Positions 2,381 to 22,638 of a DNA stretch of 23,181 nucleotides are shown in pieces. Source of the stretch: a virus. The stretch lies in IMG/VR virus record IMGVR_UViG_3300045135_000518, positions 1 to 23,181 of that record, one strand, 5' to 3'. Position 1 is the first letter of the stretch, and each line of letters starts with the position of its first letter. Below the pieces are notes generated by a model that had not been told where the DNA came from, did not search any database, and saw only the letters and a list, made by a program, of their open reading frames with translations. A program made the position numbers and the translations under genes.

Positions 2381-2782
2381 GTGGTTTTAAAGCATGTAGC
2401 TAAAATTCTAAATGGTAAGTTCCACTTCGGAGATAAAAGCAAACTGGAATACGATACACATCGTTACGAAGGCAAGACAGTGGAGCTTACCATTAAAGAA
2501 TTTAAACCAAAAAGAAGCAACCAACTTAACCAATACTACTGGGGAGTTGTAATTAGATTAGTATCAGACTATACAGGGTTTAGTAAAGAAGAAACCCACG
2601 AACTACTAAAGTTTAAATTCTTAAAACATAAAGTATTAGTAGGAGATGAATGGTATGACACTACTAAGAGTACTACTAAACTAAACAATCAAGAGATGAT
2701 TGGGTATATAGAGAAGATACAGCAATTTGCTGCAGAAGAATTCTACATCTACATACCAGACCCTAACGAAAGAAAAGTGTAA
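2381..2782 (+). CDS. NinB-like recombination protein (putative)
   Basis: A 133-residue protein that I place with the NinB/YbcN-like phage proteins because of the segment RSNQLNQYYWGVVIRLVSDY (about residues 45-64), a version of the 'R...QN..yWg.v...i' core, and because of its place directly before a RusA-type resolvase, the usual position of ninB. NinB proteins bind single-stranded DNA and act in Red-type recombination. The start is GTG at 2381, one base after the stop of the SSB-like gene; no ATG is available upstream. The C terminus abuts the next gene (stop at 2780-2782, next ATG at 2782). Family placement is moderate. Confidence 0.5.
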   Translation: MVLKHVAKILNGKFHFGDKSKLEYDTHRYEGKTVELTIKEFKPKRSNQLNQYYWGVVIRLVSDYTGFSKEETHELLKFKFLKHKVLVGDEWYDTTKSTTKLNNQEMIGYIEKIQQFAAEEFYIYIPDPNERKV

Positions 2783-3162
2783 TGGAAATCTATATACCAG
2801 GGAATGTACCCTCAAGTAAAAATAGTAAGCAATGGACTGGTAAATACCTTATCAATAGTAAGACTACAACTAATTACATTAAAGATACACGATTTCATTA
2901 CAAGCAATTCAAAGCAGTATTCGAAGATATGGTTAAAGGTTTAGAGAAGCCATACCATATATCATTCTATTTTATCAGAAGCACTAGAAGGAAGTTTGAT
3001 TATATAAATCCAGCACAAACTGTACAGGATTTAATGGTTAAGAACTTTTGGGTTGAAGATGATAACATGGAAAACATCATACCATACTTCGATGGATATG
3101 AAGTAGATAAAGAAAAAGCTGGAGTTATTATACGAGTAGTAGAAGAAAACAAAAGGCTTTAA
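2782..3162 (+). CDS. rusA: RusA-type Holliday junction resolvase
   Basis: A 126-residue endonuclease predicted to cut four-way DNA junctions made during recombination or replication. The N terminus (IYIPGNVPSSKNSKQW) is the typical RusA beta strand plus P-S-K-N segment. The acidic catalytic residues match the family pattern: D73 in RRKFDYINP, D83 in TVQDLMVK, and E92/D93/D94 in VEDDNMENI. Its length is normal (E. coli RusA is 120 residues). Start overlaps the previous stop by one base. It is the last gene of the recombination cluster; the non-coding structured region begins immediately after its stop. Confidence 0.88.
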   Translation: MEIYIPGNVPSSKNSKQWTGKYLINSKTTTNYIKDTRFHYKQFKAVFEDMVKGLEKPYHISFYFIRSTRRKFDYINPAQTVQDLMVKNFWVEDDNMENIIPYFDGYEVDKEKAGVIIRVVEENKRL

Positions 3163-3169
3163 AAATAAA

Positions 3170-3258
3170 GTGACCAAGCTACTTGAGTGCTGGATAAAAC
3201 TCTCTCCTAGCTCTACCCGAAAGGGCAAGAGGTTGTTCAAATTATGTCGTGGAGAGAG
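3170..3258 (+). ncRNA. Repeated RNA motif, copy 1
   Basis: The 25-base leader at 3170-3194 (core CCAAGCTACTTGAGTGCTGG) recurs at 3512-3536 and 6090-6114. It is followed after six bases by an 8-bp stem CTCTCTCC/GGAGAGAG that encloses a second hairpin, CTCT-A-CCC-GAAA-GGG-CA-AGAG. The stem sequence differs completely from those of the other two copies yet still pairs. It starts seven bases after the resolvase stop codon. Function unknown. Confidence 0.55.
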
Positions 3259-3262
3259 ATTA

Positions 3263-3411
3263 CAGAAGGAGGCAGAATGGTAGACGAGGGCTCCAACACG
3301 GGGGTCTGTGAGGTTAATATCAGATTAGCTGGAAGAATACTGGAGCAATTCTAGATATGCAAACAGAAGCTATTGATACTCACATTGAAGGTTCGAATCC
3401 TTCCCTTCTGA
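3263..3411 (+). ncRNA. tRNA-like element with perfect acceptor stem and T arm, 149 nt, non-canonical interior
   Basis: CAGAAGG (3263-3269) pairs perfectly with CCTTCTG (3404-3410). A five-pair T stem GAAGG/CCTTC encloses the canonical seven-base T loop TTCGAAT (3392-3398), placed directly before the acceptor 3' strand and an A discriminator, exactly as in tRNA. The 5' side has a D-arm-like stretch, GGCAGAATGGTAGAC (3271-3285), reminiscent of class II tRNAs. The total length is about twice that of a tRNA, the expected D-stem partner is missing, and I could not find a credible anticodon arm. It may be a tRNA interrupted by about 70 bases, a decayed tRNA, or a tRNA mimic inside a larger RNA. No amino-acid identity is proposed. 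Confidence 0.45.
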
Positions 3412-3413
3412 CA

Positions 3414-3496
3414 AATAACGTATATCTTCTAAGTATAGGATAGCTAGGCATTGCGTCACATGCAGATGCGAGATGAAAGGCTCGCTATACGTTATT
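3414..3496 (+). ncRNA. Cloverleaf-like 11-bp inverted repeat
   Basis: AATAACGTATA at 3414-3424 pairs perfectly with TATACGTTATT at 3486-3496. Inside are GCAT/ATGC (3448-3451 with 3460-3463, eight-base loop) and GCGAG/CTCGC (3468-3472 with 3481-3485, eight-base loop). The last hairpin abuts the long stem with no gap, as a T arm does on an acceptor stem. There is no TTC T loop, so it is not a normal tRNA. It starts two bases after the tRNA-like element ends. Confidence 0.5.
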
Positions 3497-3511
3497 CAAT
3501 TTAAATTCAAC

Positions 3512-3606
3512 GAGAGCAAGCCACGTGAACGCTGCAATAAGCTCCGATAAAATCTTAAGTCTATTTTGATTCACCTAATCGGAGCACACATACGAGAGTA
3601 CCATGC
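3512..3606 (+). ncRNA. Repeated RNA motif, copy 2
   Basis: The leader at 3512-3536 (core AGCAAGCCACGTGAACGCTG) differs from copy 3 at three of 25 bases. It is followed by the 8-bp stem GCTCCGAT (3541-3548) / ATCGGAGC (3578-3585). Next comes ATACGAGAGT, which lies at the same distance from the stem as ATACGGAACT in copy 3. In copy 2 this segment sits in a second hairpin, CACACAT / ATGCGTG, with one mismatch. Function unknown. Confidence 0.55.
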
Positions 3607-3630
3607 GTGAGTTGGGCATAAATTGAAAGT

Positions 3631-3714
3631 CCTAGTAACGTAAAATCGCTAGGCAAGAAATCCTAGTCTGGGGAGGCTAGGTGAAGTCAGTGTCGGAGGG
3701 GGTTCGCCCTCTCC
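3631..3714 (+). repeat. Two CCTAG/CTAGG hairpins and a TTCG-capped hairpin ending the structured region
   Basis: CCTAG at 3631-3635 can pair with CTAGG at 3649-3653, and CCTAG at 3662-3666 with CTAGG at 3677-3681; cross-pairing is also possible. CTAG is usually rare in bacterial DNA, so four copies in 50 bases are unlikely by chance. GGAGGGGG (3695-3702), loop TTCG and CCCTCTCC (3707-3714) form an eight-pair stem with one G-U pair and an extra-stable tetraloop. TGAA at 3682-3685 and TTCA at 3715-3718 could extend it. No T-run follows, so it is not a standard terminator. Confidence 0.5.
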
Positions 3715-3760
3715 TTCATAACTAAAACAGGTCAAAGTCGACTACTTTAAAACTAAACTT

Positions 3761-4063
3761 ATGAAAACAGAAAAAAGCAATAAACTGATAGCAGACTTTA
3801 TGGGGTTACAATTCTCTAAAGGAGAATACTACCGACCATTATACAATAGTGGGGATTGGATATCTGTAAACCAATTAAAATACCACACCTCTTGGGATTG
3901 GCTAATGCCTGTTATAAAAGAATGTTTAAAGGGAGAGGCAGAAGTAAATGAAGATGTATCTAACACTATAGTTATAAATATCTATGAGGGATTATGTAGT
4001 CAAGATAAATCTTTAACATACAAGTCAGTAGTAAAATTCATAAAAGAGTATAACGACAATTAA
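3761..4063 (+). CDS. Small phage protein with WDWLMPV motif
   Basis: A 100-residue protein of unknown function. The pattern KLIADFMGLQ near the N terminus, then YHTSWDWLMPVIKECL, then a short strand/helix and a C-terminal VVKFIKEYN is common in small phage proteins of Bacteroidetes and may belong to the phage 'ABA sandwich' type of domain; that is only a resemblance. No enzyme motif, signal peptide or membrane segment is seen. It is the first gene after the structured region, with a leader rich in A and no Shine-Dalgarno sequence. Confidence 0.75.
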   Translation: MKTEKSNKLIADFMGLQFSKGEYYRPLYNSGDWISVNQLKYHTSWDWLMPVIKECLKGEAEVNEDVSNTIVINIYEGLCSQDKSLTYKSVVKFIKEYNDN

Positions 4064-4072
4064 TAACCAACA

Positions 4073-4089
4073 GTTGCATATTTTGCAAC
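4073..4089 (+). repeat. Small perfect hairpin GTTGCA-tattt-TGCAAC
   Basis: A six-pair stem with a five-base loop lies between the stop at 4063 and the ATG at 4107. It is not followed by a T-run. It may affect translation or transcript stability, and chance cannot be excluded. Confidence 0.3.
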
Positions 4090-4094
4090 AGTTC

Positions 4095-4113
4095 AAAACA
4101 AGAGATATGAAAG
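4095..4113 (+). repeat. Repeated initiation module AAAACAAGAGATATGA, copy 1 of 3
   Basis: Nineteen bases here are identical to 4925-4943, and the first 16 to 4319-4334. Each copy contains the ATG of a gene (4107, 4331, 4937). In copies 2 and 3 it also encodes the end of the preceding protein (LKQEI-stop). The arrangement suggests duplication of a junction with a good A-rich translation start. Confidence 0.6.
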
Positions 4114-4334
4114 CAGAAATAGACATAGCTTTAATGCAGTATTTGCAAGATAAAAGGACACACGAAGAGGTTATAACATATCTTATAGGTGAGTTTGAAA
4201 AGCAATCTAACCAAAAAGTAATCGAGGAGTTAGAGCGGTTTGGTAGTTTTCAATACGAAGGAGACCAAACAAGGTCTTTTGTAAGTAAGAAGAAAATACA
4301 AGCTAGAATCAACGAGCTAAAACAAGAGATATGA
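4107..4334 (+). CDS. Hypothetical small charged protein
   Basis: A 75-residue, mainly helical and charged protein (MKAEIDIALMQYLQ...) of unknown function. I chose the ATG at 4107 over the in-frame TTG at 4074 because the TTG lies in a hairpin, while the ATG is preceded by AAAACAAGAGAT, the same initiation context used by the genes at 4331 and 4937. The C terminus, INELKQEI, is nearly the same as that of the gene ending at 4940 (KELKQEI), because the repeated DNA there encodes both a protein end and the next gene's start. Stop and next start overlap (ATGA). Confidence 0.6.
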   Translation: MKAEIDIALMQYLQDKRTHEEVITYLIGEFEKQSNQKVIEELERFGSFQYEGDQTRSFVSKKKIQARINELKQEI

Positions 4335-4660
4335 GTGGAGGGAAATTTAACTACGACCAGTATAAAATCAAAGAGATAGCTGATGATATTCAAGAGCTAT
4401 TAGATAAGCAAGGAGAGTTAAATACTGATATTCCTTCTTGGTATATTGAACAACATCCAGAAGATAGCTACTACGAAGTCTATGATGATTTAGTTCAGGA
4501 AGCTATGGAAAAAGGTGTAGAAATGTTAAGGGTAGCTTATATCTATGCTCAAAGAATAGATTGGTATCTATCGGGAGATGATGGGGAAGAAACTTTCCGT
4601 GAAAGATTAAGAGAGGATTTAATGAAATTAAACCAAGAAACTTATGGGAGTAAAAGATAA
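4331..4660 (+). CDS. Conserved phage protein with MSGG-FNY start and RIDWYLSGDDGEE motif
   Basis: A 109-residue acidic protein. The N terminus MSGGKFNYDQYKIKEIADDI and the C-terminal block YAQRIDWYLSGDDGEETFRERL are hallmarks of a widespread small phage protein with no known function. The acidic tract WYIEQHPEDSYYEVYDD lies between them. No catalytic motif is obvious. Start overlaps the preceding stop by four bases and the C terminus overlaps the next gene by 17 bases, so it is part of a translationally coupled run. Family membership is fairly sure; function unknown. Confidence 0.8.
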   Translation: MSGGKFNYDQYKIKEIADDIQELLDKQGELNTDIPSWYIEQHPEDSYYEVYDDLVQEAMEKGVEMLRVAYIYAQRIDWYLSGDDGEETFRERLREDLMKLNQETYGSKR

Positions 4661-4940
4661 AATAAGAGCATTTAATGGTGTGTGTAACTTTTTAAGTAGG
4701 TTTGATACAGGAACGCCAAGAAACAAAAGCTACAGAGCGTATGACGAGCATATTAATAATATACTTATGGGTTACTGTAAGGAGTTTAATATTGAATACG
4801 CTCCCAACAATAAACCTAAATATAAAGGTAGTAATAATCCTGTACTCTATAATAGTTTGGTTGTTCAATCCAATTTCAAACGCTTTGCCGACTGGGTTAA
4901 GTGTAATTACGAAGCCAAAGAACTAAAACAAGAGATATGA
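4644..4940 (+). CDS. Hypothetical protein
   Basis: A 98-residue protein I do not recognise. It is rich in aromatic and basic residues (RAFNGVCNFLSRFDTGTPRN, FKRFADWVKCNYEAKELKQEI) and probably soluble. It starts at the ATG at 4644 inside the end of the previous gene (17-base overlap) and its stop overlaps the next ATG at 4937. A second frame, 4702-4926, is also open but lies fully inside this gene and breaks the overlapping-gene pattern, so I treat it as a shadow. Confidence 0.62.
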   Translation: MGVKDKIRAFNGVCNFLSRFDTGTPRNKSYRAYDEHINNILMGYCKEFNIEYAPNNKPKYKGSNNPVLYNSLVVQSNFKRFADWVKCNYEAKELKQEI

Positions 4941-5203
4941 AAGTAGATAATAGTAAGGTAATTAAACAAAGTCCAAGAATGATAAAAGAAGATTTTAGTA
5001 ATACACCAAGACAAACAATTTCAAATAGTTCAGTTAAGGAATACACATACAAAGAGCGAGAACAATACGCTAATCAACGAGTGATTGATGAGTTGGAGAA
5101 ATGTTTAAGTATTGACGGTGATACGCCCTGCGAAAATGTTTACGAAACATATCAAAGAATATTAGAAAGGATTAAAGAAATAAAACAAAACCAAGATGAC
5201 TGA
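4937..5203 (+). CDS. Hypothetical charged protein
   Basis: An 88-residue unrecognised protein. The first 35 residues are polar and low in structure (QTISNSSVKEYTYKEREQYA); the rest is probably helical, with VIDELEKCLSIDGDTPCENVYETYQRILERIKEI. The phrase 'QRVIDELEK' resembles 'QKVIEELER' in the protein at 4107-4334, so the two may be distant paralogues. It starts in the third copy of the AAAACAAGAGATATGA module. A hairpin follows its stop. Confidence 0.62.
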   Translation: MKVDNSKVIKQSPRMIKEDFSNTPRQTISNSSVKEYTYKEREQYANQRVIDELEKCLSIDGDTPCENVYETYQRILERIKEIKQNQDD

Positions 5204-5209
5204 AGAAAA

Positions 5210-5228
5210 CCCCATCACAAGGATGGGG
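5210..5228 (+). terminator. Hairpin CCCCATC-acaag-GATGGGG after the small-gene run
   Basis: A perfect seven-pair GC-rich stem with a five-base loop begins seven bases after the stop at 5203. No T-run follows (the next bases are CTAACAACTG), so termination would be weak or protein-dependent. It could also be an RNA-stability or processing hairpin between transcription units. Confidence 0.4.
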
Positions 5229-5248
5229 CTAACAACTGATAACTAATT

Positions 5249-5536
5249 ATGAAAAAGACAAACAAATATAAACAAATGCCCGACCAGTCGCAAACTGATT
5301 TGCTTTTAATCATTGCAACTATTAAGAGCCTTCACGAACAACTATATAACCTTAAAGGGGTGCATAGCCAGAGGACAAAGCAATATTTTAACGTATTGCT
5401 AACTACGGCAAAACGATATGAAAAAGAAGTAGATAAGATGCTAGGAGCTGAAGAGGTGGAGGCTGTAAATGCTTTATACGATGCAATGACAGAAGCGCAT
5501 TATATTGTAAAAGATGGTATTTTAAAAGAAAAATAA
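5249..5536 (+). CDS. Hypothetical helical protein
   Basis: A 95-residue, almost fully helical protein of unknown function: LLLIIATIKSLHEQLYNLKG, then a second helix with TKQYFNVLLTTAKRYEKEVDKML, then an acidic helix AEEVEAVNALYDAMTEAHYIV. It has no membrane segment long enough to be convincing. It lies between the hairpin at 5210 and the ribbon-helix-helix gene, separated from the latter by 27 bases. Confidence 0.62.
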   Translation: MKKTNKYKQMPDQSQTDLLLIIATIKSLHEQLYNLKGVHSQRTKQYFNVLLTTAKRYEKEVDKMLGAEEVEAVNALYDAMTEAHYIVKDGILKEK

Positions 5537-5563
5537 CTATATTAGCACTACAAAAATAAACCA

Positions 5564-5719
5564 ATGAGCGATAAAATTACATACGCGATTAAGCTAGATA
5601 AGGCGCAAACGGAAGCCCTTAAAGAAGTTGCTAAAGGCAACGATAGAACGCTAAGCGGCGAAATTAGGCACGCCTTAAAGTTGCATATTGCTAAAGCTAA
5701 AGTAAAAGAGACTCGATAA
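5564..5719 (+). CDS. Ribbon-helix-helix (CopG/Arc-type) DNA-binding protein
   Basis: A short 51-residue protein. It has a short beta strand (KITYAIKLD), a first helix (KAQTEALKEVAKG), a turn (NDRTLS) and a second helix (GEIRHALKLHIAKAK), the order and size of a ribbon-helix-helix dimer subunit such as Arc or CopG. Such proteins bind operators as dimers, using alternate residues of the strand. The stop TAA is followed at once by the ATG of the VRR-NUC gene (5720), so the two are almost certainly co-expressed. It may regulate a phage operon or its own; no operator was identified. Confidence 0.68.
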   Translation: MSDKITYAIKLDKAQTEALKEVAKGNDRTLSGEIRHALKLHIAKAKVKETR

Positions 5720-6106
5720 ATGCAAGAGCCGTACTATTTCAATGAGGAGGGTCTACAGACACACGTTGTAAACTATCTTAAAAAGTATTATCCAGAAGTA
5801 AGATATTGCGCAAGTTTAGGCGGTATTCGTACGGGCATAAAGCAAGCAAAGAAGAGTAAAAATACGGGATATGTAAAAGGCTTCCCAGATTTACAAATTT
5901 GTGAGGCTAGAGGCGGATATTTTGGCTTATTCATTGAATTGAAATTTAATAAGCAATGCTATGCCAATCAAAGCCAAAAGGATTGGGTAGATGACCTTAA
6001 TAAAAGAGGTTATAAAGCTGAAATTTGCAAAGGATGGGAAGAGGCTATATATGAAATAGATAACTATCTTTTGTTAGATAATACCATAAGTGAGCAAGCT
6101 ACTTGA
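5720..6106 (+). CDS. VRR-NUC domain nuclease
   Basis: A 128-residue stand-alone VRR-NUC nuclease of the restriction-endonuclease (PD-(D/E)XK) fold. The motifs are in order: an N-terminal helix with E9/E10, GFPDLQI (D57), YFGLFIELK (E73, K75) and the glutamine of NQSQKDWVDDL (Q86), ending with the RGYKAEICKGWEEAI strand-helix. Small phage versions are thought to cut branched or structured DNA. It directly follows a ribbon-helix-helix gene. Its last codons and stop (SEQAT-stop) are encoded by the repeated RNA motif copy 3, which may constrain the C terminus. Confidence 0.88.
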   Translation: MQEPYYFNEEGLQTHVVNYLKKYYPEVRYCASLGGIRTGIKQAKKSKNTGYVKGFPDLQICEARGGYFGLFIELKFNKQCYANQSQKDWVDDLNKRGYKAEICKGWEEAIYEIDNYLLLDNTISEQAT

Positions 6107-6184
6107 ACGCTGCACAACGCCCGCACTTGTTATTCATGTTTTTTAAAATCTACCAGCGGGCAATTATACGGAACTTCATACCGA
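6090..6184 (+). ncRNA. Repeated RNA motif, copy 3 (upstream of holin-like gene)
   Basis: The leader at 6090-6114 (core AGCAAGCTACTTGAACGCTG) matches copies 1 and 2 about 2.6-2.9 kb upstream. It is followed by stem GCCCGC (6119-6124) / GCGGGC (6156-6161) and then ATACGGAACTTCATACCG, which can fold as CGG/CCG or TAT/ATA. The element overlaps the VRR-NUC stop and ends just before the ATG at 6189. It could be a cis-acting leader of that gene or a separate small RNA. Confidence 0.5.
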
Positions 6185-6188
6185 TAAA

Positions 6189-6428
6189 ATGAAAAATCTA
6201 CTTAAACAGCTATTATTTGGAGCATTACAAGCTCTACCTTTTGGGAATGTATTAACCGTAGTTGCTGACAATGTTACAAGCCCAGAGTATAGCCCAGAGG
6301 GTGAAATAAACTATCCTAAATTGATAATGTATATCATAACGGGGCTTATAGTGTTAGCCCGTCTATTTGGGTGGATAACTAACGAAGATTTAATACTACT
6401 TATCGATAACTTACAAGAAATTGAGTAG
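6189..6428 (+). CDS. Holin-like small membrane protein
   Basis: A 79-residue protein. An amphipathic N terminus (MKNLLKQLLFGALQALPFGNVL) is followed by a polar stretch (SPEYSPEGEINYPK) and one strong membrane segment, LIMYIITGLIVLARLFGWI (about residues 45-63), with a short acidic tail. The hydrophobic N-terminal stretch could be a second membrane-associated helix. Size and layout fit a small phage holin, but position next to packaging genes, far from the DUF5675 gene, makes the role uncertain. The last eight bases overlap the next gene. The structured element copy 3 lies directly upstream. Confidence 0.55.
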   Translation: MKNLLKQLLFGALQALPFGNVLTVVADNVTSPEYSPEGEINYPKLIMYIITGLIVLARLFGWITNEDLILLIDNLQEIE

Positions 6429-22049: not shown

Positions 22050-22638
22050 ATTAACAAACGAAACTAAAATAGTATTAGGGTTTACTTTACATCGAATAGA
22101 GTTAACTATCGATTGTCGTTGGGGTAAAAAAGGGGATAAAGGCGGATGGATAGAAAGTAAAAGTAATTTGAAAGGAAATGCTTGGGTGTCTGGAAATGCT
22201 AGGGTGTATGGAAATGCTAGGGTGTATGGAGATGCTTGGGTGTCTGAAAATGCTTGGGTGTCTGGAAATGCTAGGGTGTCTGGAAATGCTAGGGTGTCTG
22301 GAGATGCTTGGGTGTCTGAAAATGCTAGGGTGTCTGGAAATGCTAGGGTGTCTGGAAATGCTAGGGTGTCTGAAAATGCTAGGGTGTATGGAGATGCTTG
22401 GGTGTATGGAGATGCTTGGGAAAAGTCGCCACTACAGATATATGGAAGTGCGCATTTTTTAAACGAATGCAAATTAGGGGTTTTAAAAATAGGGTGTATT
22501 GAAAAGTCTATTACAGATTGGAAGCGTAATTTTGAAGAAATCGGCGAAATAAATGGTTATTCAAAAACTCAAATTAAGGAGTATAAATTGTATATAGATT
22601 TAGCTTTTAAACTAAGTATTTTAAGAAATGGAAAGTAA
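22036..22638 (+). CDS. Hexapeptide-repeat protein (beta-helix-like) of unknown role
   Basis: A 200-residue protein. Residues 1-46 form a beta-rich start ([28 protein letters not shown]). Residues 47-128 are 13 full and one partial copies of a six-residue unit: G/E-N/D-A-R/W-V-S/Y. The spacing and the alternating small and hydrophobic residues fit a left-handed beta helix. The last 70 residues are unlike the repeats and helical ([24 protein letters not shown]). Similar '[11 protein letters not shown]' proteins are widespread in phages, sometimes labelled as transferase-like, but no acyltransferase catalytic histidine is visible. Function unknown; it may be a scaffold or binding protein. It overlaps both neighbours. 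Confidence 0.72.
22174..22419 (+). repeat. 18-bp tandem repeat, 13 full copies plus a partial one
   Basis: The unit GGAAATGCTAGGGTGTCT recurs every 18 bases from 22174. Variation is limited to a few positions: GGA/GAA, AAT/GAT, AGG/TGG and TCT/TAT, so the unit codes G/E-N/D-A-R/W-V-S/Y. Because 18 is divisible by three and the unit lacks stops in the other frames, a second + frame and a - frame are also open over the array. Units recur in a higher-order order ([21 protein letters not shown]...), pointing to duplication of blocks. Confidence 0.9.

Follow-up and report, generated by a model that had tools for sequence, protein, structure and literature searches.

Introduction

Lambda boxB and the MS2 operator are short RNA hairpins bound by protein, with a bulge or a special loop as the recognition site. 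The put RNA of HK022 is an antiterminator that acts in cis: a pair of bulged stem-loops, about 70 nt in all and located in early phage transcripts, attaches to the beta' zinc-binding domain of polymerase, and termination is suppressed (PMC9378689). The phage RNAs GOLLD and ROOL often lie near tRNAs (PMC12286853). Here, we analyzed the IMG/VR virus record IMGVR_UViG_3300045135_000518, a stretch of 23,181 bases with the gene content of a tailed phage (the window, taken at its whole length), and we show that a repeat lying in its spacers between genes is a real structured RNA motif of two hairpins on the sense strand, namely a bulged hairpin (BH) and a second hairpin (H2). This compact element shows clean covariation and occurs in many uncultivated virus contigs; Rfam 15 has no match to it in the sources scanned, and it did not turn up in the phage records searched.

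Four copies of a bulged hairpin in the window

BH is built of GWGA, two base pairs, a one-base bulge, three base pairs and the nine-base loop NRCKUGARY. The coding strand carries all four copies found in the window:

3170-3194, plus strand: BH copy 1, stem CC/GG and AGC/GCT, bulged A, loop UACUUGAGU; 42.1 bits with model R1, of which this copy is itself a row
3512-3536, plus strand: BH copy 2, loop CACGUGAAC
3594-3618, plus strand: BH copy 3, stem GU/GC and CCA/UGG, loop UGCGUGAGU
6090-6114, plus strand: BH copy 4, overlapping the end of the open reading frame (ORF) 5720-6106; its own minimum free energy (MFE) fold is a different hairpin

The original prediction had described a leader at 3170, 3512 and 6090 as a conserved single-stranded sequence, with three or four differences between the last copy and each of the others. 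All three copies are real and correctly placed, and by eye we counted four differences between the 6090 and 3170 copies and three between the 6090 and 3512 copies; the copy at 3594-3618 had been overlooked. The single-stranded interpretation was rejected because the leader is itself a bulged hairpin whose stem covaries, and the 3170 and 6090 copies already differ by a compensating pair (C for G at 3174, G for C at 3193). The word ATACG, which had been noticed after two of the copies, is indeed present at both places; after 3512 it begins the copy at 3594, whereas after 6090 no copy follows.

Single BH hairpins are weak, at -3.3 to -7.2 kcal/mol. A 595-nt region of the window gave a folding z of -1.59, with 8 of 100 shuffles as good, and the region around 6090 gave a z of -0.94. 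These z-scores are uninformative, and thermodynamics alone would not have revealed the motif.

The BH stem covaries in IMG/VR virus sequences

An exact search of IMG/VR for one loop type returned 59 stretches, and a second loop type was found adjoining these. The stem was then left free in pattern scans, all of which fixed the outermost G-C of BH and freed the other four of the five pairs; the second IMG/VR scan, of this kind, returned 88 stretches. Within the sequences collected, all five pairs form in 90 of 94 pattern matches, and this set holds about ten distinct fully paired stems, with inner stems such as AGC/GCT, GGC/GCT, CCA/TGG, TCC/GGA and GGT/GCC. Two further free-stem scans returned 56 and 39 stretches, which overlap the other scans and are partly due to chance, and their matches were fully paired in 45 of 57 and 36 of 40 cases; the remaining 16 comprised four with four pairs and twelve with one to three, which look like chance. 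Two loci that are copies of the window itself (L060 and L061) were left out of the family counts, and the chance matches L138 and L139 from the pair count onward. Over 230 sites, G·U occurred 113 times versus twice for A·C, indicating that it is the sense strand that folds. A loose filter matched 188 times in the forward sequences versus 15 times in the reversed ones. In a 47-row alignment, each of the five pairs changes on both sides at least once, although these rows were chosen for pairing and the free-stem scans are the cleaner test.

Three other accounts of the BH sequence were rejected. A fold taken from the MFE structure of the 6090 copy pairs in 71.3% of alignment cells with a covariation score of 0.212, compared with 100% and 0.601 for BH, in rows that had been selected for the five BH pairs. 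A closed GNRA tetraloop would need two extra pairs in the loop, and these fail in 20 and 22 of the 47 rows. Stem covariation also rules out BH as a phage promoter. A search that found no further copies, or copies that had lost the pairing, had been named as fatal to the idea of a selected RNA structure; further IMG/VR copies were found with the pairing kept, and compensatory changes occur in the leader hairpin as well as in the one that follows.

A second hairpin and interchangeable modules follow BH

A pairing stem had been predicted after each of the three leaders, and stems of 8, 8 and 6 bp are present there, starting 4-5 bases after the leader. Each was compared with 10 shuffles of the downstream sequence, as was the weaker hairpin behind the copy at 3594. 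The parts that follow BH in the window, including those of its spacer of about 550 nt of structured RNA, are these:

3200-3258, plus strand: hairpin after BH copy 1, arms 3200-3207/3251-3258, 8 bp; beats 10 of 10 shuffles, present in the MFE fold
3263-3411, plus strand: tRNA-like module of 149 nt, with a 7-bp acceptor-like helix (3263-3269/3404-3410), a T-arm (3387-3403) containing GTTCGAATC and a long mid insert
3414-3496, plus strand: domain closed by a long helix, 3414-3424 with 3486-3496, read from the sequence; about 10 pairs in the MFE fold
3541-3585, plus strand: hairpin after BH copy 2, arms 3541-3548/3578-3585, 8 bp; 1 of 10 shuffles reaches it, in the MFE fold
3628-3654, plus strand: H2 hairpin of the common frame (A-R-N-CC ... 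GG-Y), arms 3631-3636/3648-3653; weak alone, 8 of 10 shuffles reaching its score
3661-3682, plus strand: second hairpin, CCUAG/CUAGG; MFE and centroid folds
3695-3714, plus strand: terminal GC-rich hairpin with a UUCG loop and no U-run after it, outside the terminator-like set; from sequence reading and fold
6119-6161, plus strand: hairpin after BH copy 4, arms 6119-6124/6156-6161, 6 bp; beats 10 of 10 shuffles, in the MFE fold

The stem of H2 varies and starts with CC:GG, and an R:Y pair lies outside a one-base bulge. Its frame was tested at the 92 of 149 unique sites with ARNCC 2-22 nt after BH, the other 57 being left uncounted. At 80 of the 92 sites, ARNCC is followed by a helix that is 6 bp or longer and that GG closes, compared with 137 of 1840 shuffles. 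The R:Y pair had not been used in the selection, and among these 80 sites it was G-C 39 times, A-U 39 times and something else twice; the split between G-C and A-U may partly follow lineage. The H2 stems were of 43 distinct kinds. In the window, the frame follows only the copy at 3594, and the other three copies lead to stems of a different frame.

BH stays constant across these arrangements, and the part behind it is interchangeable: H2, a module that is a tRNA or resembles one, a further BH, or a terminal hairpin ahead of the next start codon. Among the 168 unique copies examined for what follows, another BH comes at once in 25, and these tandem copies were excluded from the stem count. The minimal forms span only about 110 nt from BH to the start codon. 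Loci L004, L027 and L038 are 97% identical over 144 nt from BH onward, and a 200-nt stretch farther 3' is 58-62% identical, where random identity has a median of 59.5%. The element thus behaves as a portable cassette, independent of its neighbour genes. By-eye pairing of the BH loop or flank with downstream GTCAGCG, TTGTTCT or GTCGTC, which was unscored, gave nothing that holds across types.

Six kinds of locus have tRNA or tRNA-like modules within their BH clusters or next to them: the window, the L009 group, L112/L116, L052, the L066/L127 group and L120. The tRNA model was reached at L052 (44.1 bits) and L112 (35.5 bits); the module at 3263-3411 of the window scored 18.7 bits, below the Rfam tRNA cut-off of 29, and ARAGORN found no tRNA there. 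T-arm words numbered 13 in 197 kb near BH versus 13 in 952 kb away from it, related contigs being counted separately. In L112 and L127, BH stands 3 nt before or after the end of the tRNA or tRNA-like module, and in L052 the tRNA has a second, weak BH of 19.5 bits behind it.

Two features of these modules were observed in passing. Three unrelated-looking loci (window 3263-3411, L009 about 2914-3057, and L112 12578-12721 on the reading strand) have modules in which a 7-bp acceptor helix and a canonical T-arm are combined with a long mid insert, at a total length of about 143-149 nt. Odd tRNAs stand beside BH in L066, L127, L128, L136, L120 and L052: one has the anticodon GUC and a long variable arm, with a similar loop seen by eye in L120, and the others are a tRNA-Thr (AGU) and a tRNA-like module whose anticodon was read as ACA.

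Gene setting and operon position

Proteins matched in the window include a DnaB-like helicase and Sak4-like, NinB/Orf-like and RusA-like proteins. Three BH copies (3170, 3512, 3594) lie in the spacer after the RusA-like gene, and the fourth (6090) lies at an ORF end. The neighbouring genes are as follows:

2782-3162, plus strand: RusA-like Holliday junction resolvase gene, directly 5' of BH copy 1 (phrog_1682, E 9.1e-22)
3761-4063, plus strand: ORF 3' of the first BH cluster, without a family in the family search
5720-6106: ORF whose end is overlapped by BH copy 4; matches a Holliday-junction-resolvase family
6189-6428, plus strand: small ORF (79 aa) 3' of BH copy 4, without a family, holin-like only by its hydrophobic look

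The link to holin-like genes suggested in the original prediction is weak. A cluster of small ORFs with hydrophobic starts exists at 33 of 132 loci, beginning a median of 112 nt after the first BH copy, but the other downstream genes were varied and there was no holin identification.

Operon mapping covered four records, one whole and three in part, and in all four BH lies inside a run of early replication genes on the same strand, with long runs elsewhere on the other strand. The majority coding strand carries BH at 119 of 132 loci, and 13 fail. An ORF stop falls within about 25 nt of the BH start at 43 of 100 unique sites. One cluster holds all matches with E below 1e-6 in 29 of 29 other records; the window is the exception, with two clusters 2.5 kb apart. 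Pfam matches of the 56 upstream proteins scanned were mostly to DNA metabolism (DnaA C-terminal domain 10, VRR-NUC 7, DUF3127 5, DUF1064 3, and also helicase domains), and the 68 downstream proteins scanned were small and mostly without a match. Given that both the upstream and the downstream families vary, BH as a cis-regulator tied to one gene was rejected. For the terminase, for DnaB and for one downstream protein, the only matches were distant ones spread over many phages, and a Bacteroidota host is for that reason something we infer.

Some side observations were made on the same genes. At window 6104-6106 and several other loci, the upstream ORF takes its stop codon from BH itself, as the UGA in the loop or a UAA in the stem. 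The word AAACAAGAGATATGA, at window 4086-4110, 4310-4334 and 4916-4940, ends in the start codons of successive small genes and looks like a shared translation-start context. At 22120-22474 of the window, an 18-base repeat array within an ORF encodes a repeated hexapeptide.

Searches for known relatives

No Rfam 15 family covered BH or H2, at gathering score or in E-value mode, in the window and 19 loci. A blastn search of the window region and two cassette queries against GenBank phages gave only tRNA T-arm or chance matches. One pattern, restricted to CGUG loops with CATA after them, matched twice in GTDB genomes; the stem was unpaired in either case, and no true copy was found. No description of the motif was found in the open-licence literature at the level of listings and the starts of abstracts. 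BH/H2 is apparently an undescribed RNA element. GOLLD (RF02032) had no match in the window and none at BH; it scored above the cut-off in 3 of 33 BH records (L010 7067-7486 on the minus strand, and records G018 and G020), thousands of bases from BH, and was therefore rejected as the identity of BH, being a separate element in these three.

A possible role in transcript punctuation

We infer the function of BH from its pairing, payload, boundary position, portability and place in early operons. The reading we favour, plausible though short of probable, is that BH serves as punctuation in early transcripts, standing at the head of RNA cassettes and recognised by a putative factor. A mark that such a factor recognises and binds is suggested by the constancy of the loop and bulge on a free stem, by the weakness of the hairpin and by its exchangeable payload; the weak intrinsic stability in itself suggests a partner, and the position of BH at gene and tRNA ends suggests a boundary role. 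A long early transcript would carry BH as a mark at the start of every RNA cassette, and a host or phage factor would recognise the weak hairpin through its loop and bulge. The transcript would then be cut, or the new 5' end protected, at the mark, which might separate tRNA-like and hairpin RNAs from messages and tune the life or the reading of the next gene. A bolder version, which we regard as doubtful, makes BH/H2 a new class of RNA punctuation, a portable and possibly self-cleaving bulged-hairpin signal that divides the early transcripts of uncultivated phages into tRNA-like, hairpin and messenger pieces, with any payload after the mark.

Several observations weigh against the punctuation reading. 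No ORF stop lies within 25 nt at 57 of the 100 unique sites, in a count that has no random-position control. The IMG/VR contigs are related, so that the family counts are not independent events; the tRNA-like modules are confined to a few loci; and the BH of the 6090 copy, taken alone, prefers another hairpin fold. Moreover, a GC-rich hairpin with a U-run lies 3' of the last BH at 34 of 111 unique sites, compared with 7 of 287 control windows, and attenuation explains such an ending of the cassette better. Because a terminator-like hairpin thus follows at about a third of the sites, a transcription attenuator or antiterminator is a serious rival and is ranked second, although on balance we consider it rather unlikely. 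Here BH and H2 would either influence the polymerase during elongation or serve as a sensor, and would determine whether the hairpin before the next gene is read through; most of the 34 sites have an ATG 18-42 nt farther on, which leaves little room for a promoter. The place of BH in an early operon agrees with this, as does put RNA, which likewise belongs to early phage transcripts and folds into two stem-loops over about 70 nt (PMC9378689). However, the U-run is missing at 77 of the 111 sites, including both window sites, and most of the 34 are related, falling into two groups in front of two gene families. BH is also located mid-operon and not just after a promoter, and the Bacteroidetes promoter word TANNTTTG showed no peak upstream of BH.

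The remaining rivals are less probable. BH and H2 could be joints within a standalone ornate RNA like GOLLD or ROOL, one that folds into a larger particle and maybe has tRNA-like parts, in keeping with the long structured spacer RNA of the window and its tRNA-like module, with the presence of GOLLD in 3 of 33 BH records, and with the frequent proximity of GOLLD and ROOL to tRNAs (PMC12286853). We rank this third and regard it as improbable, since the minimal forms measure only about 110 nt, no Rfam family matches at the motif, and the whole region is not clearly better than shuffles (z = -1.59). Self-cleavage, in which BH with or without H2 would cut the transcript without protein, seems very unlikely: two small bulged hairpins with an invariant loop and invariant bulge-flanking bases at module boundaries would suit a ribozyme, but BH has only five weak pairs and no Rfam ribozyme matched in the window and 19 loci. 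To our knowledge, BH is smaller than the known self-cleaving ribozyme classes. We give the least credence to a DNA-level element, a replication or recombination site acting as a folded strand, despite the surrounding replication genes, the DnaA C-terminal domain in 10 of 56 upstream proteins and the movement of cassettes between contexts. The GC skew of four records tracks the coding strand with no change at BH, on which ground a replication origin was rejected; the majority coding strand carries BH at 119 of 132 loci, and the bias of G·U over A·C fits sense-strand RNA best, though folded sense-strand DNA is also compatible with it.

Should BH prove to signal processing or antitermination, it would reveal how early transcripts are organised in these phages, account for the conserved spacers that separate the replication genes, and provide a 25-nt tag for finding a partner protein. 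The tRNA-like modules that BH heads bear on why phages retain odd tRNAs.

Comparison with known systems

BH-H2 resembles HK022 put RNA only in outline, put RNA being two bulged stem-loops of about 70 nt from a phage early transcript; BH-H2 differs in showing no peak of the promoter word nearby and in being mid-operon, repeated and interchangeable, with a conserved loop. Like GOLLD and ROOL, BH is a phage-encoded structured RNA near tRNAs, but its cassette is small and modular and lacks an RF02032 match. With intrinsic terminator and attenuator leaders it shares, at about a third of its sites, a GC-rich hairpin and U-run before a start codon, whereas none occurs at the window sites, and the conserved BH part lies 5' of the terminator and is tied to no one gene. 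Finally, BH shares with lambda boxB and the MS2 operator the form of a short hairpin with a bulge or special loop, but it is set apart from them by its nine-base loop, NRCKUGARY, held on a freely varying stem.

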